Positions 2,409 through 22,904 of a stretch of 27,703 bases of DNA are shown here, piece after piece. The first letter of the stretch is position 1. The number at the start of each line of letters is the position of its first letter. The DNA comes from a virus, in IMG/VR virus record IMGVR_UViG_3300045884_000241, positions 1 to 27,703 of that record; one strand, 5' to 3'. Below the pieces are notes generated by a model. It had not been told where the DNA came from. It saw only the letters and a program-made list of their open reading frames with translations, and made no database searches. The translations under genes were made by a program, and so were the position numbers.

Positions 2409-2418
2409 TATTTAGAGT
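2409..2418 (-). promoter_or_regulatory. ACTCTAAATA start-proximal box
   Basis: On the minus strand ACTCTAAATA ends 4 nt before the ATG at 2404, with no Shine-Dalgarno. A TGTCAGG half-site (2418-2424 on the plus strand) abuts the box upstream. This is interpreted as a -10 element producing a leaderless or nearly leaderless transcript. Confidence 0.45.
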
Positions 2419-2446
2419 GTCAGGCCGAAAGAAATTCGTGACGGCT

Positions 2447-2456
2447 ACTCTGATAA
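2447..2456 (+). promoter_or_regulatory. ACTCT-GATAA start-proximal box
   Basis: ACTCTGATAA ends 4 nt before the ATG at 2461. The ACTCT and GGACATG flanks match the methyltransferase start region (ACTCTATTAGGACATG on the minus strand at 12447-12460). Confidence 0.4.
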
Positions 2457-2460
2457 GGAC

Positions 2461-2541
2461 ATGCAGAAAGTTTGGCTGGCTTACGTCCTGATAACGCTGG
2501 TTGCATATTCGCTCTATTGGGCGTTCAGATTGTGGGGCTGA
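2461..2541 (+). CDS. 26-residue single-pass membrane peptide
   Basis: The reading frame is ATG plus 25 codons and TGA. The product begins MQKVWLAYVLITLVAYSL and ends WGAFRLWG-like with Trp and Arg, specifically ...YWAFRLWG. Residues 5-22 form one hydrophobic, aromatic-rich segment with a Lys before it and an Arg after it, as expected for a small membrane peptide. It is too short for standard gene finding. The support is its position exactly behind an ACTCT-type box with GGAC before the ATG. Small phage membrane peptides include holin-like, antiholin and exclusion proteins; nothing here picks one. Confidence 0.4.
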   Translation: MQKVWLAYVLITLVAYSLYWAFRLWG

Positions 2542-3127
2542 ATCCGTTATGGATCGGCTGCCATCAAATCAAGGTTAGATCGGCCATAATAGGACACGAT
2601 GGCTTGCCCTGGCTCTCGGCTTGTGGCCAGCCCAGCCCGCAACCCGATCAACTGTCAACAAAATCTAAACCTTTCAACTGACACTTGGACGCAATGCCGA
2701 TTGGTGAAATTCTCGGCTATTAAGTGTCCAAGTTGCATCGACAATTGATTTGACAGTATCGGGCAATGGGCAAGAGCCGAGCAACGCCCCCACGGTCTGA
2801 ATTCCGAGACCCCTACCCCCTATGGCTTGCGTGTAGCGTGTCGATGGAATTTTACCAAAATCAGCCCGTACCAAATTTTTCCCCAATTCTACCCTTACCC
2901 ATTCCAGCCCGATGCCAACAGAGGCCCCTACGATTTTGTTAAATTAATCCCGACGCCCCCAAAGGCCCTTTGGCCTGTCCAAGCAAATTGAAGCCGTCCA
3001 AAGGCCCCCTAGCAATTCTTGCCGATTGGTAAAAATAATTCTTCCCCAGACCTTCCCTTCCGTCAGCCCCCAGGTAGAATCCTGGCAGCTGACGTAGCAG
3101 GTAAAACCTCGTATCAGGGGAAAAACA
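2542..3127. other. Gene-free region upstream of the serine recombinase; candidate recombination or control site
   Basis: No credible coding frame is visible. The stretch holds TGTCA half-sites at 2653-2657 and 2679-2683 (inverted, 21 nt apart) and near 2751. It also has an inverted repeat with arms ACTTGGAC (2683-2690) and GTCCAAGT (2726-2733), a CCAAAG-GCC-CTTTGG palindrome near 2958-2972, a second CCAAAGGCCC near 2998, and CCAGG/CCTGG arms near 3072-3087. Serine recombinases commonly act on sites next to their own genes, so this is the best place to look for a res/att-like site. No core dinucleotide can be assigned by eye. Confidence 0.4.
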
Positions 3128-3730
3128 ATGATTGGCGTCTACATGCGGGTATCGAGCAACAAACAGGACACGGCAAGCCAAGAGGCAGACTTGAGGCAAT
3201 GGGCCAAAGGCAAGGATGGCGTCAACTGGTATCAGGACAAGGCGACGGGCAAGAACATGGATCGGCCTGGGTTTCAAAAGCTTATGGGCGACATTCGCCT
3301 GGGCAAGGTCAAGACGGTTGTTGTCTGGCGATTGGATCGGCTGGGGCGCACGGCATCGGGCTTGACGGCGCTGTTTGATGACTTGATCGGGCTGGGGGTC
3401 AACCTTGTCAGTCTCAAGGATGGCATCGACCTTGGCACGCCTGCGGGAAAGCTGATGGCCAATATCATCGCCAGCATTGCGGCATACGAAACGGAAATCA
3501 GAGCCGAGCGTATTCAGGCTGGGTTGGCTGCCAAGAAAGAGCGTGTCGCCCAGGGCCTAGAGACTTGGAACGCTGGTAGGCCATCAGGATCGGCGCACAA
3601 GGCAACGCCCGACGTTTGCCAAGCTGTCAAGGATCAAGCTGCCAAGGGAACGAAGAAAGCCCGTATCGCCAAGATGTTCAACCTGTCACGTCCGACCGTT
3701 TACGCCATCTTGAAAGGACAGGCAGCATGA
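3128..3730 (+). CDS. Small serine recombinase (resolvase/invertase family)
   Basis: This 200-aa product has the standard resolvase layout. The N-terminal catalytic domain starts with Y5-M-R-V-S9, where S9 is the predicted nucleophile. The conserved W67-R-L-D-R-L-G-R74 arginine motif follows, then a helix E around residues 115-140. A C-terminal helix-turn-helix (about 165-197, ARIAKMFNLSRPTVYAIL) provides site recognition. GGGGA precedes the ATG. The size is that of resolvases and DNA invertases, not of the large serine integrases (usually well over 400 aa), so dimer resolution or DNA inversion is as likely as phage integration. It overlaps the next gene by 4 bp (ATGA), indicating translational coupling. 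Confidence 0.92.
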   Translation: MIGVYMRVSSNKQDTASQEADLRQWAKGKDGVNWYQDKATGKNMDRPGFQKLMGDIRLGKVKTVVVWRLDRLGRTASGLTALFDDLIGLGVNLVSLKDGIDLGTPAGKLMANIIASIAAYETEIRAERIQAGLAAKKERVAQGLETWNAGRPSGSAHKATPDVCQAVKDQAAKGTKKARIAKMFNLSRPTVYAILKGQAA

Positions 3731-4134
3731 ACGACTTACTTACCAAATTCAAGACATTGCCGACGCCTACGAAAGCTGGCGTCATCGTGGCCCCGATCCT
3801 GTTGCTCTCTTGCGCCTGTTGCTGCCCTGTTAGCGTCATCGGGTACATGAGCATGGGGGGCAATCGCCCTGTGCCGACGCTGAACGCTGCCGAGTTAGCC
3901 GACGATTGGCGAACCCACCAGGGCAAGACGGTCATCTTGGCGGATACGCCGTATGATCGGATTGACAATAAGCTGATGTTCCATCGGCCATCGAAAAGCA
4001 ATCTCAAGGTTTGGGCGACGGGCGACATTGGCGGGACTGCAAAGGAACAGCCCGTCAAGCTGCAAGGCAGAGTGGAAGGCCCCGCCGATGGATTCCTCGT
4101 CGTCAGCTTGAAAGATTGCAAGATCGTCAAATAG
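3727..4134 (+). CDS. Membrane-anchored protein with OB-fold-like domain, 135 aa
   Basis: The start at 3727 overlaps the recombinase stop as ATGA, so the two genes are coupled. Residues about 15-45 form a hydrophobic segment rich in cysteines (LLLSCACCC), a membrane anchor or possibly a lipoprotein-like signal. The remainder (about 55-135) runs W-R-T-H-Q-G-K-T-V-I...V-K-L-Q-G-R-V-E-G...V-S-L-K-D-C, the strand pattern of small OB-fold domains (tRNA_anti-like family). This suggests an extracytoplasmic or membrane-proximal ligand-binding domain, but the ligand is unknown. The gene is followed after 26 bp by a strong terminator that closes the operon. The OB-fold assignment is tentative; membrane anchoring is more secure. 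Confidence 0.6.
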   Translation: MNDLLTKFKTLPTPTKAGVIVAPILLLSCACCCPVSVIGYMSMGGNRPVPTLNAAELADDWRTHQGKTVILADTPYDRIDNKLMFHRPSKSNLKVWATGDIGGTAKEQPVKLQGRVEGPADGFLVVSLKDCKIVK

Positions 4135-4160
4135 GCCCTTGCGAGTGCGAAGCAAGGCGA

Positions 4161-4191
4161 CGGCGGGCAGCGTTGGCTGCCCGCCGTTTTT
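4161..4191 (+). terminator. Strong rho-independent terminator
   Basis: Perfect 11-bp arms CGGCGGGCAGC (4161-4171) and GCTGCCCGCCG (4176-4186) with a GTTG loop are followed by TTTTT (4187-4191). It ends the recombinase operon and isolates the HNH-DGQH gene. Confidence 0.92.
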
Positions 4192-4273
4192 CATCCGCCG
4201 TTCTTTACTTCCCGCCAATTCCCGCTATTCTTGCCCTAGTTGATTTTCCGATAGCCAACCCAAGGGGGAAATC

Positions 4274-5893: not shown

Positions 5894-5930
5894 AACGTAC
5901 TGCGACTATTTTCGTTTTCTTGAGCGACGG

Positions 5931-5964
5931 CGGGCGAGGCGTGTTGCCTTGCCCGTTTTGTTTT
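5931..5964 (+). terminator. Rho-independent terminator
   Basis: The arms CGGGCGAGGC (5931-5940) and GCCTTGCCCG (5946-5955) form 10 bp with one G-U pair and a 5-nt loop, followed by TTTTGTTTT. It separates the HNH-DGQH gene from the terminase operon, only 27 nt before the terminase start. Confidence 0.85.
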
Positions 5965-5975
5965 CATGCGCCATC

Positions 5976-5985
5976 ACTCTAAATA
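5976..5985 (+). promoter_or_regulatory. ACTCTAAATA box before terminase operon
   Basis: ACTCTAAATA ends 5 nt before the ATG at 5991. The 11-mer CACTCTAAATA is identical to the one before the minus-strand gene at 2404. There is no Shine-Dalgarno. Because a terminator lies directly upstream, a promoter must act here, and this box is the best candidate -10. A weak -35 (TTGTTT) lies about 16 nt further upstream. Confidence 0.55.
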
Positions 5986-5990
5986 CTTCC

Positions 5991-6503
5991 ATGAGCGATT
6001 GGACAGAACAAGAGCTAGCCGAGATCGAGGCCCCGATCTTGGAAGAGTTGCCCCCTGACTACGTGGCCCCGAAACTCGAAAGAGACCCGAAGGGGCGATT
6101 GCTTCCTGGGCATTCGGGCTTGAAGAAACCAAAGCCAAAACCTGTCAGCGATTCCCAGCTAAAGCGCCTTGCGAAACAGGAACTGACATTCTTGACCCAT
6201 CACGAGGAAGTTGCTCTCAAGAGAGAAGCAATCCATTCCGTCATTGGCGAATACGAGATGAAAAAGGCAATCGTTGACTTATACGAGGCCGCACTAGCTG
6301 CCGAGAACCCATACGCAAAGGTAGCGTTGATGCGATTGTTTTTTGAACAAACCGTTGGCATGCCCCCAAAGCAACTTGAGGTACAGAGCACGCAATACCA
6401 GTACAAGCAATCGATTGACTATTCAAAGCTGACGAAAGACGAATTGGCCCAGCTTGAAAAGCTGGCGAGCAAGTTTGCACCAACGGAGGGCAATGCTCTC
6501 TAA
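5991..6503 (+). CDS. terS: Terminase small subunit (probable)
   Basis: The product is 170 aa and directly precedes, with an 11-bp overlap, the terminase large subunit. It is a charged, mostly helical protein. The N-terminus is acidic (MSDWTEQELAEIEAP), followed by a basic segment around residues 20-60 (RDPKGRLLPGHSGLKKPKPKP) of the kind seen at the front of planctomycete and proteobacterial phage small terminases. A central region about 80-125 could form the oligomerisation helices. No helix-turn-helix is obvious by eye. The start at 5991 is set by the ACTCTAAATA box; an upstream in-frame ATG at 5966 would run back toward the terminator. Assignment rests mostly on position and size. Confidence 0.65.
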   Translation: MSDWTEQELAEIEAPILEELPPDYVAPKLERDPKGRLLPGHSGLKKPKPKPVSDSQLKRLAKQELTFLTHHEEVALKREAIHSVIGEYEMKKAIVDLYEAALAAENPYAKVALMRLFFEQTVGMPPKQLEVQSTQYQYKQSIDYSKLTKDELAQLEKLASKFAPTEGNAL

Positions 6504-7986: not shown

Positions 7987-8023
7987 ATCAGCCCGAACCC
8001 TGCGCTTCCGAAAGGCATCATTG

Positions 8024-8032
8024 TGGTATAAT
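8024..8032 (+). promoter_or_regulatory. Extended -10 promoter of the DUF4238 gene
   Basis: TGGTATAAT is a perfect TATAAT preceded by the TGn extension. No good -35 is seen at 17 nt, which fits an extended -10 promoter recognised by the host housekeeping sigma factor. Transcription would begin near 8039, just before an in-frame GTG at 8041. Confidence 0.65.
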
Positions 8033-8064
8033 TGACTAGAGTGAATGGCCCACGGAATCGACCC

Positions 8065-9066: not shown

Positions 9067-9090
9067 ATCAATCTACTTGCGAGGCCCCTC

Positions 9091-9630: not shown

Positions 9631-9632
9631 TA

Positions 9633-11880: not shown

Positions 11881-12447
11881 TTATACCTGGCTTGAATCGG
11901 AAGGCAAGACTTCGTTCCCCCAACACGTCCATTGGGGCCTTTGCTGCCTTGCAAAGCAATCTAGGTAAGGGCCTGGGGACATGGCTTCAATCAGATTGTA
12001 AAAGGCGTCGGGCTTGCGGGAATGCGTACCAGCCAACGGGTTTGTTTTCATCCAATTCAACTTGCCGATACCCGTAAATTTTTTCATCGGCTTGCCATAG
12101 AAGGCCAGCAGGCAATACTCGGCAGCAAAGACGTACCCGCAACAGGGAGCAATTCCAGACGACTTGACAAGAGGCATGCAGAGATGAAATCGGCAGCCCC
12201 AGGCATCCAGAACATCAAATGCCGAGCGTAGAAACTTGTTCGTTGTCCACAAGTAGACATGAGCGCCAACCTCGGCCAATGACGCCAGAGGAAACGATTT
12301 GATTTCATCCAAGGTCAAGGTTTGGTACGGCAACTCTCTTGCCCGTTGATGCCTGCGCCTGTCATACCGTCCTGTCATGCTCTGTTGCCATGCGGGATCG
12401 ATATTGATTGTTGCAAAACGAGAATTAGGTAAGTGTTCAAAAAGCAT
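11881..12447 (-). CDS. MT-A70 family N6-adenine DNA methyltransferase
   Basis: The 188-aa product begins with the SAM/catalytic motif I-N-I-D17-P-A-W20, the DPPW-type signature with Ala in place of the second Pro. It then has the family hallmarks L-T-L-D-E-I-K-S-F-P-L, V-Y-L-W-T-T-N-K-F, E-Y-C-L-L-A-F-Y-G, S-R-K-P-D-A-F-Y and a C-terminal W-T-x-W-G-N-E. This matches phage MT-A70 enzymes, which transfer methyl to adenine N6 in DNA. It is the first gene of the minus-strand block. Its ATG is preceded by ACTCTATTAGGAC with a TGTCAGG half-site abutting, and it is divergent from the portal gene across only 65 bp. Protection of phage DNA from host restriction is the likely role. Confidence 0.88.
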   Translation of the reverse strand: MLFEHLPNSRFATINIDPAWQQSMTGRYDRRRHQRARELPYQTLTLDEIKSFPLASLAEVGAHVYLWTTNKFLRSAFDVLDAWGCRFHLCMPLVKSSGIAPCCGYVFAAEYCLLAFYGKPMKKFTGIGKLNWMKTNPLAGTHSRKPDAFYNLIEAMSPGPYLDCFARQQRPQWTCWGNEVLPSDSSQV

Positions 12448-12512
12448 GTCCTAATAGAGTGTCAGGCAACCATTCTTGTCAGGAAGTGACAGGTAGCACA
12501 CTAAATAAAGAC
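12448..12512. promoter_or_regulatory. Divergent control region between methyltransferase and portal genes
   Basis: This 65-bp stretch holds a start-proximal box on each strand: ACTCTATTA (12452-12460, minus) and ACACTAAATA (12498-12507, plus), each 4-5 nt from its ATG. Between them are three TGTCA half-sites: TGTCAGG at 12460-12466 and 12477-12483, and TGACAGG starting at 12487. The compact layout of two back-to-back starts sharing three half-sites suggests joint control by one regulator. Confidence 0.6.
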
Positions 12513-14801
12513 ATGACTAAGGGCAAGAAACCAAAGGCAAAGCCAAAGGCAAGAAAGGCAACGCCGAAAAAGCTGCAAGAAAAAGCCTGGCCCAACTGGA
12601 TACCAATAGGCGGATCAAGCTACGCCCAGGGTTCCGATTACTGGGGCAGACCGAACCCAACAACAATCGACTTGATCGGGGCATTCAACGACACGGTTTA
12701 TAGTTGTTGCACGTTGATTACAAACTACATGGTTGACGTGCCGATTCGTCTTTTCGTCGAAACCGAGGACGGGCAACCGAGGCCAAAATGTAGGACGAGG
12801 CGTCCATCGAAAAAAAGTTTGGCCGTTGTCGAGAAACGCCTGGGTAGAGCAACCAGAGTAGAGGAAGTAGTAAGCCATCCAGCCCTCGATTTGCTGAACC
12901 ATGCGAACGGGTATCACAACTGGCTTGAACTAATCCAGCTAACGCAACTGTTCATTGACGTGACGGGCAACGCCTATTGGCTGGTACAAGCCGATGCGTA
13001 TGGCGTGCCGAGCGAAATCTATTTGCTGCCGACGCAAACAGTTGAACCGATCAGAGACGAGGCAACGGGCTACATCGTTGGATGGACTGTCACCAATGGC
13101 CAGAGCAAGACAGAGTACACGCTAGATCAAGTGATTCATTTCAAGACCCCCAGCCTCGCCGATCCTTACGGGATGGGGTATTCCCCCGTCATGGCGACAT
13201 GGAATCGTGTTCAAATCGGCGCAAAGGAAATGGGCTACCTTGACGCCACGTTATCGAACATGGGAAGGCCCGACGCTGTATTAAGCCCTGATGAACCGAT
13301 CAGCCCGCACGAGGCCGAACGGCTTGCCAAGGATTTCTTTCAGAGGTTCAGAGGCCAGGGCAGTGGCGGCATACTGGTTGCCGATGGCCCGATGAAGCTT
13401 AGCCCTCTCGGATGGCCCCCACGGGATTTAGCCGAGTACCAGTTGTACCAGTCCATCAAGTGGGCTGTCTCCAATGCGTTCGGCATTCCCCCAGACGTAT
13501 GGGAAATCGGCCAGGCCAATCGATCAAGCGCCGAGGCAGTCCTTTACGCCTTGGCTGTTCACGCCATCAAGCCTCGTGTATCGAGAATCGTCGAAAAGCT
13601 GAATGAGCGATTGATACCGATGTTTGATAATTCGGGGCGTCTCTTTTTTGAGGCCGACAGCCCGATACCAGAGGACAAGGAATTCCTGTTGCGTGAACGG
13701 CAAATGTTGTTGGCGACGGGAACCATCTTGAGGGATGAAGCCCGAACGCTGTACGGTTTCGATTCGGTTGATTGGGCGAAAGAGCCATTGGCCCCACCAG
13801 GGATGTTGCCGAGCGAGGCCCTTGCAGCCAGCCAGCTTGCCCAGCCGAGCGAACCCACCGAGGACAAGATCGATCGTTCGGCGCAGGCCCCGATCCTTGC
13901 GGCGCTGCAAGCCCAGGTTAACGCTGGCCAGATAAGCCGACAGGCAGCAATTGCCAACGTCGTCTTGACGATGGGGTTCGCCCAGGCCGAGGCCGAGGCC
14001 CTCTTCCCAGAAAAGCCCCCGAAGGTCATTGCCCCAGAGCCAGCCCCAGCCAAGGCGATGAAAACAAAGGCCCTGAAACGCAAAAGCCCAGAGCGATTAG
14101 CCAAGGCCATTGCCTCTTTCTTCCGTCATCAGAAAGCCAGTGTCTTGGAACACGTCAAGGCGTTGCCCGATCTTGAGACGAAAGCACACGACGAATTTTT
14201 CAACCTTGAGCATTGGTCAAAGGCGATGGCCGAGGCGTTGCGCCCTGTTGTGCAACTGTATGCCGATGACAGCGCACGCAAGACGGTAACCAGAATCGGG
14301 GCGACGTTGGATTTGTTCAACGTCACACAACCGAAACTGAAAGAGGGCGTCGATAAGGCCACGATGATTTTTTGCAAAGAGACAAACGACACAACCAGCC
14401 AGGAAATCGGCGTTGCGATCAAAGAGCTACGGGCGTCGTTGACCGAGGGCCTACAGGCTGGCGAGTACAACAACCAGCTTGCCAAACGTGTCGGGGCGAT
14501 TTTCGAGAACGCCGAGGTTTACCGATCCTGGCGCATCGCCGTTACCGAGGCCAATCGGGCGCAGCATGCGGCGCAATTCACGGTTGCCAAGGAATCGGGA
14601 ATCGTGAAGGGCAAGCGCTGGATACTGTCCAGTGAAGCTTGCGACAAATGCAAGCCGTTGGCTAACAAGGTCGTGCCATTGGAAGAAATCTTTACCAACG
14701 TGGATTTTGGAAACAAGGCTTACTCTGCTATTGAATACCCCCCGTTGCATCCTGCTTGCCGTTGCGATTGCATCGAGGTTATCGAAGGGATAAACGAATG
14801 A
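12513..14801 (+). CDS. Portal protein fused to MuF-like minor head protein, 762 aa
   Basis: Residues about 1-30 are a Lys/Pro/Ala-rich basic tail. Residues about 45-430 are an HK97-type portal, recognisable from Y-S-C-C-T-L-I-T-N-Y-M, L-L-N-H-A-N-G, G-N-A-Y-W-L-V, Y-L-L-P-T-Q-T-V and F-G-I-P-P-D-V-W. The portal forms the ring at the packaging vertex. A Pro/Ala/Glu-rich linker (about 430-530) leads to a MuF-like C-terminal domain (about 600-760): R-x-A-V-T-E-A-N-R, then W-x-L-S-S-E-A-C-D-K-C and H-P-A-C-R-C-D-C. These are separate genes in most phages. Start 12513 follows the ACACTAAATA box; an upstream opening at 12459 is less likely. It overlaps the next gene as ATGA. Confidence 0.92.
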   Translation: MTKGKKPKAKPKARKATPKKLQEKAWPNWIPIGGSSYAQGSDYWGRPNPTTIDLIGAFNDTVYSCCTLITNYMVDVPIRLFVETEDGQPRPKCRTRRPSKKSLAVVEKRLGRATRVEEVVSHPALDLLNHANGYHNWLELIQLTQLFIDVTGNAYWLVQADAYGVPSEIYLLPTQTVEPIRDEATGYIVGWTVTNGQSKTEYTLDQVIHFKTPSLADPYGMGYSPVMATWNRVQIGAKEMGYLDATLSNMGRPDAVLSPDEPISPHEAERLAKDFFQRFRGQGSGGILVADGPMKLSPLGWPPRDLAEYQLYQSIKWAVSNAFGIPPDVWEIGQANRSSAEAVLYALAVHAIKPRVSRIVEKLNERLIPMFDNSGRLFFEADSPIPEDKEFLLRERQMLLATGTILRDEARTLYGFDSVDWAKEPLAPPGMLPSEALAASQLAQPSEPTEDKIDRSAQAPILAALQAQVNAGQISRQAAIANVVLTMGFAQAEAEALFPEKPPKVIAPEPAPAKAMKTKALKRKSPERLAKAIASFFRHQKASVLEHVKALPDLETKAHDEFFNLEHWSKAMAEALRPVVQLYADDSARKTVTRIGATLDLFNVTQPKLKEGVDKATMIFCKETNDTTSQEIGVAIKELRASLTEGLQAGEYNNQLAKRVGAIFENAEVYRSWRIAVTEANRAQHAAQFTVAKESGIVKGKRWILSSEACDKCKPLANKVVPLEEIFTNVDFGNKAYSAIEYPPLHPACRCDCIEVIEGINE

Positions 14802-15167: not shown

Positions 15168-15190
15168 GATAAATAGGACAGTGGAGGAAA

Positions 15191-15997
15191 ATGAAAAAGA
15201 AAACTCTTGTGCAAGGCCCTCTGGGATTTCAACAGACGGAAGAGACAGCGAGGCACTTAGAGGCCCTGTTGAAGAAACTTCCGAAGGACAAGGCGTACCA
15301 GTATCGGAAAAAGAACACGTCCAGCGATGTTCAATTTGAACCAGGCGAGCGTGCCAGCATCGACATTATCACAACCGATAGCGTCGATCATGAAAAGGAA
15401 GTTGTCCTGCCCGATGGCCTAAACCTCGGCAGCTACCGAAAAAATCCAATCGTCCTGTATTCCCATGACGCTGAAAAGCCAATAGGCAAGAGCCTCTGGA
15501 TAAAGGGAACGCTGAACGGCTTGAAAGCCAAGACGCTGTACGCCACGAGGCCCGACAATTTCGAGGGCGATTTCTTGCCCGATCTTGTCTTTGCCCTGGT
15601 GCAACAGTCGATCCTGAAAGGCCGATCAATCGGCTTTATCCCCCTGGTCATCGACAGCCCGACGCCAGAGCAAATCAAAGCGAGGCCAGATTGGGAAGGG
15701 GCTAACGTCATCATTTCCAAGTCGGAATTGTTTGAATACTCCATCGTCTCGATACCGTGCAACGAAGACGCCTTGCAGCAGGTTGTATCCAAGGGCTTGA
15801 AAGACTTCTCTACCGAGGCCCTTGCGGCGCTGGGATTGAACGTCCAGGCCCCCATCAAGGAAACGACCGTCAAGCCACGACCAAAGCCCATCGACGAAAG
15901 CAAACTGGCAATCAAGCTGTTGGAGAAAATCCAGATTGACCCCGATGCCATCGCAAGGCAAGTCATCGAGGCCCTACGAACAAGGGGACAAATTTGA
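15191..15997 (+). CDS. HK97-type prohead protease
   Basis: The 268-aa product carries the U35 prohead protease signature: V-D-H-E-K-E-V-V (about 73-80), I-V-L-Y-S-H92-D with the predicted catalytic His, and G-R-S146-I-G-F with the predicted nucleophilic Ser. E-Y-S-I-V-S-I-P-C-N follows. Family members cleave the capsid delta domain and scaffold during head maturation, then degrade themselves. The C-terminal 60 residues are Lys/Pro-rich and helical and may be a scaffold-like tail, since no separate scaffold gene is seen. GTGGAGG before the ATG gives a strong Shine-Dalgarno. A strong terminator follows, so the capsid gene downstream must have its own promoter. Confidence 0.93.
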   Translation: MKKKTLVQGPLGFQQTEETARHLEALLKKLPKDKAYQYRKKNTSSDVQFEPGERASIDIITTDSVDHEKEVVLPDGLNLGSYRKNPIVLYSHDAEKPIGKSLWIKGTLNGLKAKTLYATRPDNFEGDFLPDLVFALVQQSILKGRSIGFIPLVIDSPTPEQIKARPDWEGANVIISKSELFEYSIVSIPCNEDALQQVVSKGLKDFSTEALAALGLNVQAPIKETTVKPRPKPIDESKLAIKLLEKIQIDPDAIARQVIEALRTRGQI

Positions 15998-16035
15998 TTG
16001 ATGACGCATAGATAGATTGTTTGACTCCTTTAAGG

Positions 16036-16088: not shown

Positions 16089-16224
16089 CCTATATACGGG
16101 CAGACTGAAAAGCGATCAGGTTAAGCGATACCTAGCCAGGTTTGGATAGCTGGAGGTTAGGATCGGTTGTAATAACTGGCGATTGGCGACAGTCAAAGAG
16201 AAACTTTGACTTAATAGAGGATCA
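16089..16224 (+). promoter_or_regulatory. Capsid gene promoter candidate and leader with 5' hairpin
   Basis: CCTATATAC (16089-16097) closely matches CCTACATAC found before the tail tube and the last virion gene. It lies just after a terminator, so it is the best -10 candidate for the capsid transcript. The roughly 120-nt leader ends with a perfect hairpin, GTCAAAG (16192-16198) and CTTTGAC (16204-16210), followed by TTAATAGAGGATCA and the ATG. The hairpin leaves GAGGA free and may protect the mRNA 5' region of this highly expressed gene. Confidence 0.55.
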
Positions 16225-17628
16225 ATGCAAGTAGCATATCGACTAGAACAAGCCTTCGGCAGCAATAAAGAGGGCGACATTATCCACATGGATTCAGAGG
16301 AAGCAGGCAGCCTGGTAGAGGCTGGCGTCCTTTGCGAAGCAAAAGAGGAAGACTTACAGAACAACGACGAGGACAAGGAAGCCCCAGAGGAAGAGGAAGT
16401 AGCCCCAGAACAGAATGCGGCGCTTTCCAAGGCAATCGACAAGATCAGCCGAAACATCGAAACAGCCGTCGCCAAGGCGTCAGCCAAGGTCATGGCCAAT
16501 AGCAAGACACGCCAGGCCCCAGCCTTGAGCGTACCAGCCGAACCAAAGCAAGAGGTTTACAAGTGTATGGGCGAAATGCTCAAGGACACTTGGCTTGTAC
16601 GTCAAGGTGATTCAAGGGCTGCCAATCGCTTGAATGCTTACAATGCACGTCACAAAGTTGCCGCATTGGGTAGCAATGAAACTAGCGATGCAGCAGGCGG
16701 ATATGGGGTTAAGCCTGATTGGGCCAACAAAATTTGGGACAAGGCCAGGGACTATCCAAGACTTTTGGATCGTACCGAACGTGTCCCTGTCAGTGGCGAC
16801 ACGTTCAACATTCCATGCTTGAATGAAACCAGCTTGGCAGACGGTAGCCGTCATGGTGGAGTAAGGGGCTATTGGGTTGGTGAGTATCAACCAGCTACAG
16901 CCAGCCAACCAGCAATGACCCAGGTAACAGCCATCATTCAAACGAACATTGTGTTCTCGTTCGCAACACTTCAGTTGTTACAGGACAGCAATATCGAACC
17001 GTTTGACAGGTTCATTACCAAGTACGCTGGCTTAGAATTGGTATGGCAAGAGAATCAGGCAGTAACAGCAGGCGCAGGCACTACGCAACCTGTAGGTATC
17101 CTGAATCAACCAGCGTTGATAACGGTTACCAAATCCAGCAACGATGGCGCTGCAATGTTCGGCTTTGACGACCTGGCGAAAATGTACCGTTCACTTTATG
17201 GGCCATCAAGAGCCAACGCCGTTTGGCTTGTGAACCCAGAGGCGTACAACGTCCTTGCACAAATGACGTTCGTAAATCAAGCTGGTACAGTCACAACCTA
17301 TCCAGCATTCGGAGGCGTGTCCTACAATGCAAACGATGACAAGTTCCCAATGCGAATCTTTGGTAAGCCTGTCATCGAATGGCAAGGCTTGCCGCAATTG
17401 GGCGAGGTTGGCGATATCATTCTTACCGATTTGACCCAGCTTGTAACAGCCGAAAAGCCGCAACTTTTTGCAGACGTGTCGAACGACTACGCTTTCAATA
17501 CTCTGCAAGTGGCTTTCAGGTTCTATCGTCGTTACGACATTCGCAGCCCTTGGACGGCTGCATTGACTAGCGTTGATGGCCACTATAGCTACAGCCCATT
17601 CATTGCATTGCAGGCCCGAGGCACTTAA
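16225..17628 (+). CDS. Major capsid protein (HK97 fold)
   Basis: The 467-aa product has an acidic, helical N-terminal region (about 20-125, including a run of Glu near 47-58) typical of a delta domain that acts as internal scaffold and is removed by the protease. The HK97-fold core follows from about residue 150: T-S-D-A-A-G-G-Y-G-V-K-P, R-L-L-D-R-T-E-R-V-P, F-D-R-F-I-T-K-Y-A-G-L-E, G-A-G-T-T-Q-P-V-G-I-L, A-V-W-L-V-N-P-E-A-Y and F-R-F-Y-R-R-Y-D-I-R. These match the Phage_capsid family. Shells of several hundred copies are built from it. GAGGA precedes the ATG. It is flanked by a terminator on each side, an independent and probably very strong transcription unit. Confidence 0.94.
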   Translation: MQVAYRLEQAFGSNKEGDIIHMDSEEAGSLVEAGVLCEAKEEDLQNNDEDKEAPEEEEVAPEQNAALSKAIDKISRNIETAVAKASAKVMANSKTRQAPALSVPAEPKQEVYKCMGEMLKDTWLVRQGDSRAANRLNAYNARHKVAALGSNETSDAAGGYGVKPDWANKIWDKARDYPRLLDRTERVPVSGDTFNIPCLNETSLADGSRHGGVRGYWVGEYQPATASQPAMTQVTAIIQTNIVFSFATLQLLQDSNIEPFDRFITKYAGLELVWQENQAVTAGAGTTQPVGILNQPALITVTKSSNDGAAMFGFDDLAKMYRSLYGPSRANAVWLVNPEAYNVLAQMTFVNQAGTVTTYPAFGGVSYNANDDKFPMRIFGKPVIEWQGLPQLGEVGDIILTDLTQLVTAEKPQLFADVSNDYAFNTLQVAFRFYRRYDIRSPWTAALTSVDGHYSYSPFIALQARGT

Positions 17629-17686
17629 ATTACTGCGATGGTTGGACCGATTTCATCGGGACCATTAGGCATGTTTCCTTTGTAAA

Positions 17687-17719
17687 GCAAAAAACCCTGG
17701 CTTGTGGCCAGGGTCTTTT
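17687..17719. terminator. Bidirectional terminator
   Basis: The arms CCCTGGC (17695-17701) and GCCAGGG (17707-17713) surround a 5-nt loop. An A-tract (GCAAAAAA) on the left and TCTTTT on the right give U-tracts on both strands. It serves the capsid gene (plus) and the ATPase gene (minus, stop at 17725). A second hairpin, CCGAT-TTC-ATCGG, lies just upstream near 17648-17660. Confidence 0.85.
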
Positions 17720-17724
17720 GTTGC

Positions 17725-18642
17725 CTACTTCTCTGTTCGCTTCAAGGCCCTGTAGAAACTCCGTTCCCCCTTGTGGCCAGTATCCCTTTCCCACAAGGCG
17801 ATTTTTTCCTTGTAGCCGATTTTCATGGCGTTGATCTTGAGGGCAGTTTCAACGTCCCTTGCAACCCGATCCGAGCGCCGAACGACGATGGGCCTTTCCT
17901 GAATCCGACCTAGCAACAGTTCCGACCAGTGCTTGACGCTGTTGCCCGTCTTCCATTGCAGCCGATCCTTGAAGCCGTTTTGCAGCAGGCGAAGGTCAAG
18001 GTTGCGGCGCAGCTCACCGAGGCGGGTTCGGATCATCTCGCCAACTTCAAGGCATTCATCGGGCGTCAAGAAATCGTCGCCATACTGAAACCCATCGAGG
18101 CAGATTTTCTTTTGCAAGGCGAGCAATTCCTCGTTGCTCAAGTCAAGCTTGATGACGTTGATTCGTGTCTTGATGGCCCGAACCTCTGGGATTTCATCGG
18201 CGAGGTTGGCGTTGCTGATGACGATGATTGCGCCCGTAAACGGAAAGCGAATTTCCGTCTTGTGCGCCGTCCAAGTGATTTCACGGACAGGGGGCTTTTC
18301 TTTCGATTGCGACCAAAGAGCCGAACGCAAGACGCCAAAGGTTTTCTTGTCGTCCATCAGCGTTTCGGCATCCTCGATAAGGTGAATGTCGGCTGGCGAA
18401 CGCTCAAGGGCTTCAACCAGGCCCCTGGCTGTCAATCGGCTGTTGTGGTAGATGTATCGGGCTTTCTCGTCTCGCAAGACTTCAAGTACCTTGTACGATT
18501 TGCCCGTTCCGCCTTCCCCATAGAGGAAAAGCCCCGTTGCGAAATGCTTCGTGACGCCCCGTACCAAATCGGCAACGTGCGTCATCTTGTCCTCGATGCT
18601 TTCCAGATGGTCCCGTTCCTGTTTGGTCAGTTGCGATGACAT
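17725..18642 (-). CDS. AAA+ ATPase, 305 aa
   Basis: Walker A is G42-E-G-G-T-G-K-S49, Walker B is I-H-L-I-E-D (about 103-108), and sensor-1-like I-V-I-S-N lies near 160. These are features of a P-loop AAA+ protein of the DnaC/IstB-like or regulatory type. The C-terminal 100 residues are helical and basic (WERDTGHKGERSFYRALKR), plausible for DNA or partner binding. It could be a helicase loader, a replication accessory, or a defence or immunity ATPase; nothing adjacent decides. AGGGG precedes the ATG on the minus strand. The gene is antisense to the late genes and behind the best consensus promoter in the window, which sits in a cluster of TGTCA half-sites, so tight control is likely. Confidence 0.8.
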   Translation of the reverse strand: MSSQLTKQERDHLESIEDKMTHVADLVRGVTKHFATGLFLYGEGGTGKSYKVLEVLRDEKARYIYHNSRLTARGLVEALERSPADIHLIEDAETLMDDKKTFGVLRSALWSQSKEKPPVREITWTAHKTEIRFPFTGAIIVISNANLADEIPEVRAIKTRINVIKLDLSNEELLALQKKICLDGFQYGDDFLTPDECLEVGEMIRTRLGELRRNLDLRLLQNGFKDRLQWKTGNSVKHWSELLLGRIQERPIVVRRSDRVARDVETALKINAMKIGYKEKIALWERDTGHKGERSFYRALKRTEK

Positions 18643-18672
18643 GACTAGGCCCCTGTTTGAACGAATCGGCTA

Positions 18673-18793
18673 CCTGACACTTAATGTCATGATACGTAAA
18701 CTGTCAGGTAATGTCAAGTGTTGTGTCATGGAAACCTGGAAATATCCAGGCTGACACAACATGACAGTTTGTGTTGTGCGTCTAAATCTGTCA
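18673..18793. repeat. Cluster of eight TGTCA/TGACA half-sites with a 41-bp inverted repeat
   Basis: Half-sites lie at 18675, 18685, 18702, 18712, 18724, 18752, 18762 and 18789 (first base given; both orientations). CCTGACA (18673-18679) and TGTCAGG (18702-18708) are inverted copies. GTTGTGTCA (18720-18728) and TGACACAAC (18752-18760) form a larger inverted repeat that encloses CCTGGA-AATA-TCCAGG (18735-18750). This density looks like a multi-site operator upstream of the ATPase gene. Confidence 0.7.
18689..18717 (-). promoter_or_regulatory. Consensus promoter of the ATPase gene
   Basis: On the minus strand a perfect TTGACA -35 (18712-18717) and TATCAT -10 (18689-18694) are separated by exactly 17 bp. 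Transcription would start near 18682. TGTCA half-sites lie in the -35 itself, in the spacer (18702-18706) and at the start (18685-18689, 18675-18679), an arrangement typical of a repressed promoter. Confidence 0.75.
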
Positions 18794-18828
18794 GTATGTT
18801 ACCACGAAAAGCCGAGTTGTAAAGTGAA

Positions 18829-19590
18829 TTATTTCGCAAGATCGGCAACGATGGTTTCAAACAGGCCCTGACTGATGACCTGATAGCCGTTTTCGCCGTT
18901 CGGCTGGCAATTGGGCGCTTGGCAAAAAACTTCCAAGCAACGAGGGATCTTTAGGGCTTCCGCAATGGCGAATGCCGATGACTGGTTGCCAATGAACAGC
19001 TTGCAAGCTGCGATGGCCCTGGCGATTTCGTAGAAATTTTTCGGGTAGTGATGGGGAACGTTGATCTTGGCGAATCGGCGAAAGTCTCTGTATTCCTCTG
19101 GCAGTCCAAGAAAGATGATCTTGCTTTCGTAATGGCGCAGGAATCGGTAGCAAAGCTGGGGGTTGCGATACCTCATGGTTCGATTCACGAGGATCATCCC
19201 TCGGAACGATTCATCGGGATCGACAGTTAGCCAGGGTTCCCATGTCCGAGGGCAGACCTTGAACACGTAGCTGTAGTATCGGGCAATGTCGCCTTTATCC
19301 AACGGGAACCCGATTCCACGGAACCAATTCAAGTTGTAATCGGCCTGTTCGCCTTGCCAAATTCTCGCCTCGCCAATGTACGGTTGCTTCAAAAGCAATG
19401 GGATCAGGCCCTCGGCGTAGGCCCTGTTCATGCAGACGTTGCGCAACGGATGAGACACGCCATGAACGTAGCCTGCGGGATGATCGATTTCCAAGAGCAT
19501 GCAAGCCTTGTCGGGCTTGCACAGTTCCTTGACCGTCGCAAGCGAATACAGGGCGTCGCCCACGTTGCCCCACGTATGAAACGTCTTCAT
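18829..19590 (-). CDS. Glycosyltransferase family 9-like protein, 253 aa
   Basis: The start MKTFHTWGNVGDALYSL at 19590 carries the N-terminal G-N/D-x-G-D motif of heptosyltransferase-like GT9 enzymes. The C-terminal F-I-G-N-Q-S-S-A-F-A-I-A-E-A-L-K-I-P (about 205-222) matches their nucleotide-sugar site. Such enzymes transfer a sugar from an ADP- or GDP-like donor. The ATG overlaps the stop of the upstream glycosyltransferase (ATGA), so the two are one operon; an upstream opening at 19662 is inside that gene and rejected. The substrate could be host envelope glycan (receptor masking), virion protein or DNA; nothing in the sequence decides. No terminator is seen before the operator region downstream. 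Confidence 0.75.
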   Translation of the reverse strand: MKTFHTWGNVGDALYSLATVKELCKPDKACMLLEIDHPAGYVHGVSHPLRNVCMNRAYAEGLIPLLLKQPYIGEARIWQGEQADYNLNWFRGIGFPLDKGDIARYYSYVFKVCPRTWEPWLTVDPDESFRGMILVNRTMRYRNPQLCYRFLRHYESKIIFLGLPEEYRDFRRFAKINVPHHYPKNFYEIARAIAACKLFIGNQSSAFAIAEALKIPRCLEVFCQAPNCQPNGENGYQVISQGLFETIVADLAK

Positions 19591-20315
19591 GACGGCATCC
19601 AATCCGCCTTGGCATCTTTCGGGATGTTGCGATAGATGCGCACGTCTTGCAGCCCGATCCACGAGGACAGCATCGCTAGCGTTGGATCAGAGGCCCCCGT
19701 ATCGAGATGGCCCAGGCCGAGGCCAGAGGCCCCTGGCATTTGCTTCAAGCCGACATGCAACGGCTTGCCGTCGTTTGCTCGATTCGGAATCAACGTCCAA
19801 CGGCTGTCGTCTTGTGTCCCCTCGGACCAAAGATAACAGTCGATGTAAACGGATTTATGCAACTTGCAGCGCTCAACGAACGGGATCATGTCGGGCGTGA
19901 AGGCCGACGCTGCGAGGCTGGCGTGATGCGTGTTTCCCATTCGCTGATATTTGCGAACGGCAAGCTTGTAATACAAGTCGCCCTTCACGCCTGCCAACCT
20001 GTTGGTTTCCAGCAACGGCAAGAGTGATTCAATGAACGTGGCATGGTAGTAATCGTCATCTTCAAAGGCAAAGATTCTGTCGCCCTTGATCCTGGGAATT
20101 GCTTCAAGCCAGTTCAGGCATATCGACGGCAAGGCGTCTTTCTTGCTCGCCTTGCGATGGACAACCTCCTGGCCCATCGTGAATCGATAGCCTTTCAAGT
20201 CTTCCCCGACTACTAGCCATTGGTTCCAAGGCACAGTTTGACGGGCTACCCACTTTTCAAGCAAGGCAAAGCAACCTGGCCTGCCCGTTGTTGTCGTGAC
20301 AATTGTAATGCTCAT
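19587..20315 (-). CDS. Glycosyltransferase family 2-like protein, 242 aa
   Basis: The start at 20315 (MSITIVTTTTGRPGCFALLE) fits the usual GT-A N-terminus, T-x-T-x-G-R-P followed by a helix, with a W-L-V-V-G-E-D strand. I-F-A-F-E85-D-D-D88-Y-Y is the metal-binding DxD-type motif. Sequence after residue 150 (Y-I-D-C-Y-L-W-S-E-G-T-Q-D-D) is less typical of the family. AACTCTAATTA (20320-20330, minus) lies 4 nt before the ATG with no Shine-Dalgarno, so this is a start-proximal-box gene. It heads a two-gene operon with the GT9-like gene and is divergent from the connector gene at 20348. Cytoplasmic enzyme, no membrane segment seen. Confidence 0.75.
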   Translation of the reverse strand: MSITIVTTTTGRPGCFALLEKWVARQTVPWNQWLVVGEDLKGYRFTMGQEVVHRKASKKDALPSICLNWLEAIPRIKGDRIFAFEDDDYYHATFIESLLPLLETNRLAGVKGDLYYKLAVRKYQRMGNTHHASLAASAFTPDMIPFVERCKLHKSVYIDCYLWSEGTQDDSRWTLIPNRANDGKPLHVGLKQMPGASGLGLGHLDTGASDPTLAMLSSWIGLQDVRIYRNIPKDAKADWMPS

Positions 20316-20347
20316 GAAGTAATTAGAGTTACCAGCGTAAATATTGC
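20316..20347. promoter_or_regulatory. Divergent start-proximal boxes between glycosyltransferase and connector genes
   Basis: Only 32 bp separate two divergent starts. AACTCTAATTA (20320-20330, minus strand) ends 4 nt before the ATG at 20315. GTAAATA (plus strand, near 20337-20343) ends 4 nt before the ATG at 20348. Neither has a Shine-Dalgarno sequence. Confidence 0.5.
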
Positions 20348-21286
20348 ATGGCACTAATCACAAGAGCAAGGGCGACTGAACTGATTCCTAATTTCCCATC
20401 GGCTGATAACAGCGTAATGGATGACATTGTGAACGCTTCGTCGGATACTGTAATCAGATATTGCAACCGTGATTTCGCACTGACGACCTACGACGAGGTG
20501 CTTGATGGCTCTGGGGCAAGGAACCTCTTGCTAAGCCAATACCCCGTTACGCAAATCCTGCGCATTGCCACGAACAACACGAACGCAATGGGCATCCATC
20601 AGAGCGATACAGGATGTAGCCGAGCTTCCTGGCGATTGGACGGCACGACAGCCTCGCCATCGGTTCCGAATTACTTGTACCTTGTGTCGGCAAAGAACGG
20701 CGTTGAAACGGCCGTCACGATAGGCCCCGTCACGTCGGCAACCCCTACGGTTACGATCAACGGGGGCAGCCCCACGACGATAGCCCAGATGTTGACCCTG
20801 ACTGACCTGGCGACAGCGATCAATACCTACGGGGGTTCTTACGGTTGGCAGTCCATCGCCCTGGGACAATTCGGGACATGGCCGATAGCCGACTTAAGGC
20901 CCCCGCAGGGCGCACTTGAGGCACGATGGTACGGGTACGCTTTCCTAACGATGTTCGGCCTGAATTTCTTCCTGTTCGATTTCAACCCAGACGTTGGCGA
21001 GATTGTTTCGGCGCAGGGGTTCGATTTCGGCTATCGGAACTATCGGGTTATCTACCAGGCTGGCTATTCGACGGTTCCCAGCCCGATCCAACAGGCAGTT
21101 GCGGCGCTTGCCGTTTCCGTTTACCAGTCCAGAGGGATCAACACGAACCTTCAGAGCGAAAGCCTTGGCGGGTATTCCTACAGCCTGATTGCCGACAAGA
21201 CGTTTCATCAGCTTGACCTTGTTTCGAGGTACGGCTTGAATCTTTGGAAGTCTCACAGGATCGGGAAATTCAAGGTCACAGTGTAA
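20348..21286 (+). CDS. Head-tail connector (adaptor), HK97 gp6-like, 312 aa
   Basis: The N-terminus (R-A-R-A-T-E-L-I-P-N-F-P-S-A-D...V-N-A-S-S-D-T-V-I-R-Y-C-N-R-D-F) is the helical start of gp6-like adaptor proteins. The C-terminus has the matching closing helix, P-S-P-I-Q-Q-A-V-A-A-L-A-V-S-V-Y-Q-S-R, and G-G-Y-S-Y-S-L. These proteins form the ring docking below the portal. At 312 aa it is about three times the usual gp6 length. The extra region (about 80-225) is strand-rich, with T-P-T-V-T-I-N-G-G-S-P-T-T, and probably a beta-domain insertion decorating the connector. It starts a plus-strand run that continues through the tail genes with small spacing. Confidence 0.75.
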   Translation: MALITRARATELIPNFPSADNSVMDDIVNASSDTVIRYCNRDFALTTYDEVLDGSGARNLLLSQYPVTQILRIATNNTNAMGIHQSDTGCSRASWRLDGTTASPSVPNYLYLVSAKNGVETAVTIGPVTSATPTVTINGGSPTTIAQMLTLTDLATAINTYGGSYGWQSIALGQFGTWPIADLRPPQGALEARWYGYAFLTMFGLNFFLFDFNPDVGEIVSAQGFDFGYRNYRVIYQAGYSTVPSPIQQAVAALAVSVYQSRGINTNLQSESLGGYSYSLIADKTFHQLDLVSRYGLNLWKSHRIGKFKVTV

Positions 21287-21295
21287 CGGAGGATC

Positions 21296-21616
21296 ATGCT
21301 TGCGAATTTGATGTTCAATACGGTCAACGTGAATCGGCCTACGCCAACAAAGGGAACGTCGGGGGCGCAAAAGAATACGTACACGACGGTTTATAGTTCG
21401 CTGCCCTGTTCCGTCCAGCCCGTTACCGCAACTTGGCAGGTACTCTACAGCCAACGGCATATTGACGTGACGCACAGTGTATTCTTTAATTCCAATCCGA
21501 CCATACAGGCAGGAGACCAAATTGTTTTTGGTTCATTAACGCTGATGGTTCAGGGTATCAGGGATTTAATCAGCTTGCAACGTGTCCTAGTCGTGGACTG
21601 TCTGCAAATCGAGTAA
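21296..21616 (+). CDS. Head-tail joining (stopper) protein, 106 aa
   Basis: The size, place and pattern fit the head-closure family (SPP1 gp16/HK97 gp7-like). A short beta barrel is indicated by T-Y-T-T-V-Y-S-S-L-P-C-S-V-Q-P, then Y-S-Q-R-H-I-D-V-T-H-S-V-F-F, I-Q-A-G-D-Q-I-V-F, and a final V-Q-G-I-R-D strand near the C-terminus. The stopper seals the packaged head and binds the tail. CGGAGGATC before the ATG is a strong Shine-Dalgarno. It lies 9 bp after the adaptor gene and 8 bp before the gp10-like gene, in the canonical order. Confidence 0.75.
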   Translation: MLANLMFNTVNVNRPTPTKGTSGAQKNTYTTVYSSLPCSVQPVTATWQVLYSQRHIDVTHSVFFNSNPTIQAGDQIVFGSLTLMVQGIRDLISLQRVLVVDCLQIE

Positions 21617-21624
21617 GGAGGCCC

Positions 21625-22023
21625 TTGGCAACGTTCAATGATAAGTTCATCGATGGCGTAGAAAAGCAACTGAAGGATAATCTGTTCAAGGCTGCCGTAT
21701 ACCTCAAAACAAAGATCAAAGAACGCCTGAACGTGACAGGAAACCCGATCCTAGCAAGCCGAGGCCCTGGTGGACGGCATTACCGAAACGAAACGGTATC
21801 AGCCCCAGGCGATGCCCCGCACAAGATGCTAGGCAATCTTCAGCGCAGTATTGCCCATGCCGTTGATTCAGACGGCAAAACGGCATACGTCGGCAGCAAT
21901 CTTGACTATGCCCTGTATCTCGAAATCGGCACTTCCAAGATGGCAGCCCGTCCATTCTTTCGCCCGATCTTTCAGGAAGAGGCGGATACGTTGGCAAAGA
22001 TACTGACGACAGGCACTAAATAA
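21625..22023 (+). CDS. HK97 gp10-like tail component, 132 aa (TTG start)
   Basis: The sequence Y-A-L-Y-L-E-I-G-T-S-K-M-A-A-R-P-F-F-R-P (about 98-117) is the defining signature of the HK97 gp10-like family. An N-terminal helix, a Gly-rich loop (S-R-G-P-G-G-R-H-Y) and G-N-L-Q-R-S-I precede it. Members act at the head-tail interface or tail completion. The start is TTG at 21625 with AAGGAGG 6 nt upstream; no in-frame ATG gives a full-length product. Its final codons ACT AAA TAA form a TAAATA-like sequence in front of the next gene. Confidence 0.85.
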   Translation: MATFNDKFIDGVEKQLKDNLFKAAVYLKTKIKERLNVTGNPILASRGPGGRHYRNETVSAPGDAPHKMLGNLQRSIAHAVDSDGKTAYVGSNLDYALYLEIGTSKMAARPFFRPIFQEEADTLAKILTTGTK

Positions 22024-22027
22024 GTGC

Positions 22028-22429
22028 ATGGCCAGTTTTCTTGCGGACATAATGACGTATTGGGCGGGCAACTCAACACTTACTAACGCTGTTCCTGCGA
22101 GCAAGTTCTATACGGGCTTAGTTCCTGAAGGAACGGCATTCCCCTACGTGATTGTAATTCCCATTGCATCGACCCCGACGAATCTAACAGCCCCAGGGTA
22201 CTGGGAAACATTCAGTTTCCAATTGAGCGTATACGATTCCGACCCTGATAACGTGGAAACGGTTTGCCAGACGATCTTAGGCCAGTTTGATTACGTGTCC
22301 ATATCGGCAGCTTGCATATCGGTCGAAAGAACAAATGGCCCCGTTTTCATGGTCGATCAGGAAACGCCAGAATTGGTATATCACGGAATGATTGTCTACG
22401 ATTACAGGCGCAACCAAACAGGCCAATAA
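22028..22429 (+). CDS. Tail terminator/completion protein (probable), 133 aa
   Basis: Position between the gp10-like protein and the tail tube, plus size, indicate a tail terminator. The sequence fits the alpha/beta fold of that group: M-A-S-F-L-A-D-I-M-T-Y-W, then F-P-Y-V-I-V-I-P, F-S-F-Q-L-S-V-Y-D-S-D-P-D-N-V-E-T-V-C-Q-T-I and E-L-V-Y-H-G-M-I-V-Y-D-Y-R. It would form the ring capping the tube after assembly. There is no Shine-Dalgarno; the CACTAAATA sequence at the end of the upstream gene lies 6 nt before the ATG. A tube-like protein is the alternative but less likely. Confidence 0.7.
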   Translation: MASFLADIMTYWAGNSTLTNAVPASKFYTGLVPEGTAFPYVIVIPIASTPTNLTAPGYWETFSFQLSVYDSDPDNVETVCQTILGQFDYVSISAACISVERTNGPVFMVDQETPELVYHGMIVYDYRRNQTGQ

Positions 22430-22445
22430 AAAACACGTCGGCAGC

Positions 22446-22483
22446 CCTACATACCTCCAGAGACTTTTACTACCCTCTGGAGG
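22446..22483 (+). promoter_or_regulatory. CCTACATAC box and hairpin covering the tail tube ribosome-binding site
   Basis: CCTACATAC (22446-22454) is followed by a perfect 9-bp inverted repeat, CCTCCAGAG (22454-22462) and CTCTGGAGG (22475-22483), with a 12-nt loop. The right arm contains the GGAGG Shine-Dalgarno, 3 nt before the ATG at 22487, so the hairpin would mask it. If CCTACATAC is a -10, the transcript starts about at the left arm. This can be a translational switch or a 5' stabiliser. Confidence 0.6.
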
Positions 22484-22486
22484 AAA

Positions 22487-22876
22487 ATGGCGACTTTCAA
22501 AAATGGTTTTAGTGGCAATGTTTTGGTTGGTGCATACTCGTTAGCCGTTACCGAATGGAATTGCGATTTCGAGGTTGAAATCCTTGATACTACAACAACT
22601 GGTGATTCGGGTTGGCAAACCAACATCAACGGTTGCAAAAAAGCTACGGGAACGGTCAAGACGTTCTTTGATACGGCTGCCGTGCCTACAGGCGCAACAG
22701 GCCCAAACCTTCAAAACGGAACCAGCGTTACCTTAACGCTCAAGATTGCGGACACGACTAGCGTTTGCATAGTCCCTGCCCGAATCGGCAAGGTATCGAT
22801 AGGCAACCCTGTCAAGGGCGTTGTTTCTTTCGAGTTTCCTTTTGAATCGAACGGCGTTTGCACACTACCAACATAA
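22487..22876 (+). CDS. Tail tube (major tail) protein, 129 aa
   Basis: The 129-residue, strand-rich protein (N-G-F-S-G-N-V-L-V-G-A-Y-S-L-A-V-T-E-W-N-C-D-F...D-T-T-T-T-G-D-S-G-W-Q-T-N-I-N-G-C-K-K-A-T-G-T-V-K-T-F-F-D) has the tube-protein pattern of a beta sandwich with a long loop and ends V-V-S-F-E-F-P-F. It stacks to form the tail tube around the tape measure protein. The strong GGAGG near the ATG, its own CCTACATAC box and leader hairpin, and its place before the chaperone and tape measure genes all fit a highly expressed tube protein. Family match is by pattern, not by a decisive motif. Confidence 0.75.
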   Translation: MATFKNGFSGNVLVGAYSLAVTEWNCDFEVEILDTTTTGDSGWQTNINGCKKATGTVKTFFDTAAVPTGATGPNLQNGTSVTLTLKIADTTSVCIVPARIGKVSIGNPVKGVVSFEFPFESNGVCTLPT

Positions 22877-22890
22877 TTTGAGGCTGACGT

Positions 22891-22900
22891 ACTCTATTGA
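22891..22900 (+). promoter_or_regulatory. ACTCTATTGA start-proximal box
   Basis: ACTCTATTGA ends 4 nt before the ATG at 22905, with TGAC a few bases upstream. No Shine-Dalgarno is present in the 28-bp gap after the tail tube stop. Confidence 0.45.
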
Positions 22901-22904
22901 TTTC

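Follow-up and report, generated by a model that had tools for sequence, protein, structure and literature searches.

We analysed a 27,703-base viral sequence, IMG/VR record IMGVR_UViG_3300045884_000241 (positions 1 to 27,703; the window), in which a TA-rich hexamer, here called the box, recurs a few nucleotides (nt) before start codons. The window is a fragment of a head-tail phage, with genes for a terminase, a portal protein fused to a Mu-F-like domain, a protease, the major capsid protein, a connector, a tail terminator and the major tail protein. A nucleotide search of phage records with the window returned no match, and nothing in it matched Rfam. Its nearest relatives include, besides two near-identical contigs, L005 (79% capsid identity), L006 (66%) and the prophage L025 of Zavarzinella formosa DSM 19928 (53%). 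Z. formosa is a member of the Gemmataceae, and the prophages of two other genomes of that family, G012 and G007, have portal, protease, capsid and connector genes in common with the window.

The original prediction listed ten starts preceded by such a box, which it read as a -10 element placing the transcription start at or next to the start codon. Every sequence it quoted was present at its position and on its strand, and a box lay 4 to 5 nt before the start codon in all ten cases, but in three of them the hexamer was weak. The clear cases are TAAATA at 2409-2414 (minus strand), 4 nt before the ATG at 2404 (minus), with a position weight matrix (PWM) score of 16.8; TAAATA at 5980-5985 (plus), 5 nt before the ATG at 5991 of the likely small terminase gene (PWM 18.2), with a terminator at 5929-5957 directly upstream; TAAATA at 12502-12507 (plus), 5 nt before the portal ATG at 12513; TAATTA at 20320-20325 (minus), 4 nt before the ATG at 20315 (minus), which forms a divergent pair with TAAATA at 20338-20343 (plus), 4 nt before the head-tail connector ATG at 20348; TAAATA at 22017-22022 (plus), 5 nt before the tail terminator ATG at 22028; and TAAATA at 23970-23975 (plus), 4 nt before a tape-measure-like ATG at 23980 that overlaps the upstream stop codon. 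The weak boxes are TGATAA at 2451-2456 (plus), under the PWM cut and 4 nt before the ATG at 2461; ACTCTATTA at 12452-12460 (minus; hexamer TATTAG), before the ATG at 12447 (minus) of an MT-A70 methyltransferase gene; and TATTGA at 22895-22900 (plus), 4 nt before the ATG at 22905. Two box-led starts had been overlooked: the GTG at 1662, 4 nt after TACATA at 1652-1657 (plus; TACATAggac), with an intrinsic terminator directly upstream, and the ATG at 26549, 5 nt after TACATA at 26538-26543 (plus; TACATAcaggt; PWM 19.5). The gene behind the weak box at 2461 (2461-2541) encodes a 26-residue hydrophobic peptide, possibly a small membrane protein.

We curated 36 starts in the window by eye from its open reading frames, individual starts of which may be off, and found TA[ACG]ATA at a spacing of 4 to 5 nt before eight of them. 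Only 0.05 were expected (mean of 5,000 first-order Markov simulations, with a maximum of 2), so that the enrichment before starts goes far beyond that of randomised sequence. None of the 839 ATGs in the window that are not starts had the hexamer at this spacing. It occurs 12 times in the 27.7 kb, counting both strands; eight copies stand before starts and three upstream of SD-led genes (genes with a Shine-Dalgarno [SD] sequence), and 11 of the 12 lie upstream of a gene on the correct strand. The claim that box-led starts mostly lack an SD sequence also held, GGAG, GAGG or AGGA being missing at 11 of the 12 and present at 15 of the 24 other starts. Leaderless promoters are marked both by a missing SD sequence and by a TA-rich, -10-like hexamer that precedes start codons at a set, short distance more often than chance would allow.

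Alignment of 58 sites from the window and other phages gave the consensus C-TA[A/C/G/T]ATA-N(3-4)-C-[A+1], together with a T-rich block 15 to 20 nt upstream of the hexamer. T-A-x-A-T-A was nearly invariant, and beside it the sites were enriched only for C, at -1 (42/58) and at -3 (31/58). The T-rich block, which had played no role in site selection, spans -20 to -15, with T at -16 in 39 of the 58 sites. The box stands 4 nt from the start in 25 of 51 sites and 5 nt in 21. The ACTCT extension that had been counted as part of the motif was seen at some sites only; we dropped it from the consensus as a local feature, unconserved across the 58. The box behaves like the -10 element it had been taken for, but not as a lone one, given the second element upstream. 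The sigma-70 promoter, TTGACA-17-TATAAT, shares this bipartite layout, the TA-rich -10 and a pyrimidine-purine start; here, in contrast, the T block ends ~14 nt before the hexamer, TTGACA is missing and the consensus is TANATA. Matches of the sigma-70 type in the window showed no excess over shuffled sequence.

The box is conserved at orthologous genes. It precedes the portal start in all five phages for which that start was available, with differing letters around it (TAAATAaagac, TACATAaaggc, TACATAgggc, TAGATAtctgc and TACATAtctcg), and the head-tail connector in six of six. Protein identity among these phages is ~27-84%, and around the orthologous boxes the DNA sequence has drifted apart, yet the hexamer and its distance to the start persist. 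The divergent pair at 20320/20338 is also present in L005 and Z. formosa; the tail terminator gene of L006 and that of Z. formosa are likewise preceded by the box. It is missing from more distant viral relatives (L009-L024, L180 and L182), whose portal or capsid identity is ~22-33%. Gene calls at loci outside the window came from a simple codon-usage caller, and individual starts there may be off.

Two genes with SD sequences have the box farther upstream. Its distance is 98-128 nt from the major capsid gene, where all six phages have it, and 25-102 nt from the major tail gene, where all five do. The predicted promoter of the capsid gene in the window (ATG at 16225) is TATATA at 16091-16096 (plus), with a leader of ~128 nt, a C-A initiator 5 nt after the box and a hairpin with a T-run just upstream; its position agrees with the capsid boxes of the other five phages. 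TAGATA at 16009-16014 (plus) is probably not the capsid promoter and was set aside, as the hairpin with its T-run stands between it and the gene. The 98- to 128-nt capsid leaders (window 16097-16224; L005, L006, L025, L100 and L115) may hold a structured RNA. A C-A pair follows the hexamer by 4 to 5 nt in 8 of 11 leadered sites, where no ATG constrains the sequence (chance ~7e-6), and this is the place that the A of the ATG occupies at leaderless sites. A further TAAATA, at 15170-15175 (plus) and 15 nt before the SD-led protease ATG at 15191, lies inside a conserved overlapping frame, and its role is uncertain.

At the major tail gene of the window (ATG at 22487), TACATA at 22448-22453 (plus) is followed by a hairpin at 22454-22483 (plus) that masks the SD sequence, with the predicted transcription start inside its 5' arm. 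Four of the five phages have such an inverted repeat directly after the box, the 3' arm being the SD sequence. The arms are CCTCCAGAG/CTCTGGAGG in the window, CCTCCA/TGGAGG in L006, CCTCGG/CCGAGG in Z. formosa and CCTCCGG/CCGGAGG in G012, and they covary, so that pairing is kept through the changes in all four. Two of these hairpins fold strongly (-15.7 and -13.5 kcal/mol; shuffle P <=0.004), the other two modestly (P 0.06-0.08). An RNA that starts 5 nt after the box would miss most of the first arm and leave the SD sequence free, whereas a read-through RNA would hide it in the hairpin. In T4, late promoters (TATAAATA) depend on the sigma factor gp55, the co-activator gp33 and the clamp. Hairpins mask the SD sequences of the T4 genes e, soc, 49 and I-TevI, and late transcripts of gene e lack the 5' part of the masking structure (PMC3014915). 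The layout at the major tail gene, with a promoter inside an SD-masking hairpin, was the same in the four phages, and we infer that a start-inside-hairpin switch may work here as it does at gene e.

Two further observations at box-led starts bear on transcription. A pyrimidine precedes the start A at 47 of 51 box-led starts, compared with 23 of 55 other phage starts (P 3e-8). In addition, the ATG lies ~27-36 nt beyond the end of a strong intrinsic terminator at 6 of the 51 sites and at 8 of 25 unique sites from the blind search described below, compared with 2 of 76 phage starts that have no box. The T-run of the terminator coincides with the T-rich block, and the final ~25 nt between terminator and ATG contain no SD sequence. 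Since the terminator would block read-through from upstream, the RNA should begin within these last ~25 nt, and only leaderless transcripts fit. The leadered boxes, the pyrimidine-A signature and the terminators just upstream together lend good support to the promoter and leaderless readings of the original prediction, and its idea of a T4-late-like, phage-specific layout was borne out in the sequence pattern.

We conclude that the box is probably (at a probability of roughly 0.86) the -10-like core of a phage-specific promoter, likely a late one, whose transcripts would be leaderless where the start A is the A of the ATG and leadered elsewhere. RNA polymerase would be placed by CTANATA and by the T-rich block 15-20 nt upstream, for which the T-runs of terminators could serve, and would start at a C-preceded A 5-6 nt after the hexamer. 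Where this A belongs to the ATG, the mRNA would be leaderless and would need no SD sequence. For the two genes with a more distant box, capsid and major tail, this promoter would yield a leader with an SD sequence; at the major tail gene that sequence would be free only in RNA made from this promoter, whose start would lie inside the hairpin. Transcription from the box and the exact start position are read from the sequence pattern, and late timing is suggested because the genes served are structural.

Because the PWM was built from the phage sites themselves, its enrichment in these phages gives no independent support, which a blind search does. We searched 95 Gemmataceae genomes for CTA[ACG]ATA-N(3-4)-CATG and obtained clusters in G011, G024, G022, G013, G007 and others. 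PHROGs identified box-led genes in these clusters as portals, head-tail connectors, tail terminators and one terminase. The T-rich block, which was outside the query, was present at hits with long reading frames and absent from the few with short ones. G134, a genome of the same class that was not among the 102 genomes covered for the order of Z. formosa, holds box-led genes on two contig stretches, four on one and six on the other, and these stretches look phage-like.

Several other explanations of the box must be weighed against a phage promoter. Chance matches of an AT-rich string in an AT-poorer genome have a negligible probability: although the sites were picked by eye, the enrichment tests reject a chance origin (8 against 0.05), as do orthologous conservation and blind rediscovery in other genomes. 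The box might instead be a translational signal on the mRNA, replacing the SD sequence through contact with S1 or 16S rRNA, which would suit its fixed 4- to 5-nt spacing to the start, the near mutual exclusion of box and SD sequence, and its presence inside packed operons (22028 and 23980). Yet a start-codon signal would not be expected at leadered distances before the capsid and major tail genes, and the C-A pair at box+4/5 without a following ATG, the upstream T block, the terminators immediately upstream and the lack of use by host genes likewise make this explanation improbable. Binding sites of a phage repressor or activator laid over the starts, rather than RNA polymerase elements, might be suspected from the divergent pairs 32-65 bp apart, from the many phage operators that overlap promoters and from the TGTCA/TGACA repeats nearby. 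The box, however, is asymmetric, always points towards the gene at a fixed spacing and has a pyrimidine before the start A, and we consider such sites very improbable.

The box could also be an ordinary leaderless -10 element of the main host sigma factor, as in Deinococcus, an explanation that overlaps ours on the promoter itself. Leaderless -10 motifs adjacent to open reading frames are common in Deinococcus-Thermus, beside a separate GGAG-led class (PMC12340547), and Planctomycetes have been proposed to use leaderless and/or S1 initiation, that is, initiation without an SD sequence (PMC5397173). The box is moreover common to unrelated phages in different hosts, and the scans described below found no phage sigma factor. 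Host genes, however, do not appear to use it. In ~640 kb of control DNA from three host genomes, with 460 called genes, there was one doubtful case, compared with 4 to 12 in each prophage region, and box-ATG matches outside the prophages were mostly tiny or unsupported frames. TA.ATA was not enriched upstream of Z. formosa host genes (3 against 12.9 expected), and the full matrix at its strictest cut stood at chance level in host intergenic DNA. In view of the near absence of the box from this sequence, we rejected a host-wide leaderless promoter. The consensus differs as well, being TANATA rather than the TANNNT that is used host-wide in Deinococcus-Thermus, with a T block ~5 nt closer than a sigma-70 -35 element. 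Common to both systems are a -10 element within a few nt of the open reading frame and, by prediction here, a leaderless mRNA (PMC12340547); in our case phages carry the box and the sampled host genes do not. Overall, we consider the host explanation rather unlikely.

Some observations weigh against a phage-specific promoter. Three sites of the original prediction (2461, 12447 and 22905) are weak, the need for promoters at 22028 and 23980, inside tightly packed operons, is not obvious, and the G012 capsid site has no C-A at +4/5. At a looser matrix cut, Z. formosa host intergenic DNA showed a small excess (8 against 2.4 expected). A dedicated factor has not come to light either: a Sigma70_r2 search of the three host genomes placed none inside the three prophages among the matches listed (at least ~45 bits), and Pfam scans of the early genes tested found no sigma domain, which a diverged gp55 could escape.

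The phage-modified polymerase or alternative sigma factor proposed in the original prediction remains a hypothesis. Since host genes make no use of the motif, host sigma-70 alone is disfavoured as the reader of the box; a host alternative sigma factor, a diverged gp55-like phage sigma factor or an activator is possible. No multisubunit phage RNA polymerase was seen among the scanned genes, the window being a 27.7-kb fragment. Early proteins common to the prophages resemble small terminase subunits or helicase/primase-like proteins. A box-led gene with several MerR/HTH_17-type DNA-binding domains occurs in two phages only (L053:12553-13149 and L006:3126-3758); the L006 copy adjoins the portal gene and is a candidate regulator.

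Among known systems, T4 late promoters are similar in their short TA-rich element a few nt before the start (TATAAATA compared with CTAAATA), in serving structural genes and in a layout that places the start inside an SD-masking hairpin (PMC3014915). The hexamer resembles the T4 element, which stands as a single element without a -35; here, in contrast, there is a second, T-rich block upstream, transcription would start on the start codon, no gp55-like gene was recognised, and the carriers are unrelated head-tail phages and prophages of planctomycetes. The giant phages phiKZ and AR9 also have short phage-specific consensus sequences linked to the point where the transcript begins, the late ones being TATG in phiKZ, which starts at the G, and AACA-6N-TA/G in AR9, whose leaders measure 26-491 nt (PMC5312081). 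These are read by the multisubunit RNA polymerases of jumbo phages (PMC5312081), none of which was seen among the genes scanned here. Searches of the literature outside subscription journals turned up no account of such promoters, or of any others, in phages of planctomycetes.

Other features of these genomes deserve mention. Two genes without a Pfam match (window 18829-20315, minus) are inserted between capsid and connector; in the window, L005 and L006 their orientation is the reverse of that of the structural genes, one of them is turned round in Z. formosa, and G012 and G007 have neither at this place. Intergenic clusters of TGTCA/TGACA-type repeats (window 2400-2460, 12440-12500, 18640-18800 and 26486-26535) are possibly operators of a phage repressor. 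Z. formosa has a second low-G+C element (G001:C1:1948000-1973000; 44-49%) with a different capsid region and several TAAATA boxes before starts. Across the Gemmataceae genomes G002-G095, a remote capsid homologue is present in 70 of 95, mostly at ~24-35% identity and usually once per genome, often with a portal homologue nearby and with the box missing; a domesticated prophage or gene transfer agent of wide occurrence is a possible explanation of these loci. Two small conserved genes (EWLA..DEGFLLP and FSRY.QEKY) are box-led in both L220 (G034) and L225 (G053); the first has no PHROG match, and the two may belong to phages or to hosts. L233, L234 and L235 (G154 and G181) contain box-led genes outside obvious prophage clusters, whose products start with a GxPGYRVSRDG motif that we take to resemble NUMOD4/HNH homing-endonuclease genes.

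Almost nothing is known about promoters and translation signals in planctomycetes or in their phages, and the box points to a dedicated late-gene switch that apparently has not been described before. We give about even odds to a broader proposal: that planctomycete phages with differing capsid and tail genes share a dedicated late programme, run by an undescribed sigma factor or activator, in which portal, connector and tail mRNAs would be leaderless products of a two-part promoter, the T-run of the terminator ahead of it often being its upstream element, and SD-led capsid and tail genes would be gated by leaders and a start-inside-hairpin switch. The compact consensus is testable and finds phage structural genes in unannotated genomes, and it supplies a natural set of predicted leaderless transcripts for a phylum believed to make little use of SD sequences. 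It also points to a factor that would make RNA polymerase favour phage late genes and that, if found, would be of practical use in a phylum for which few genetic parts exist.

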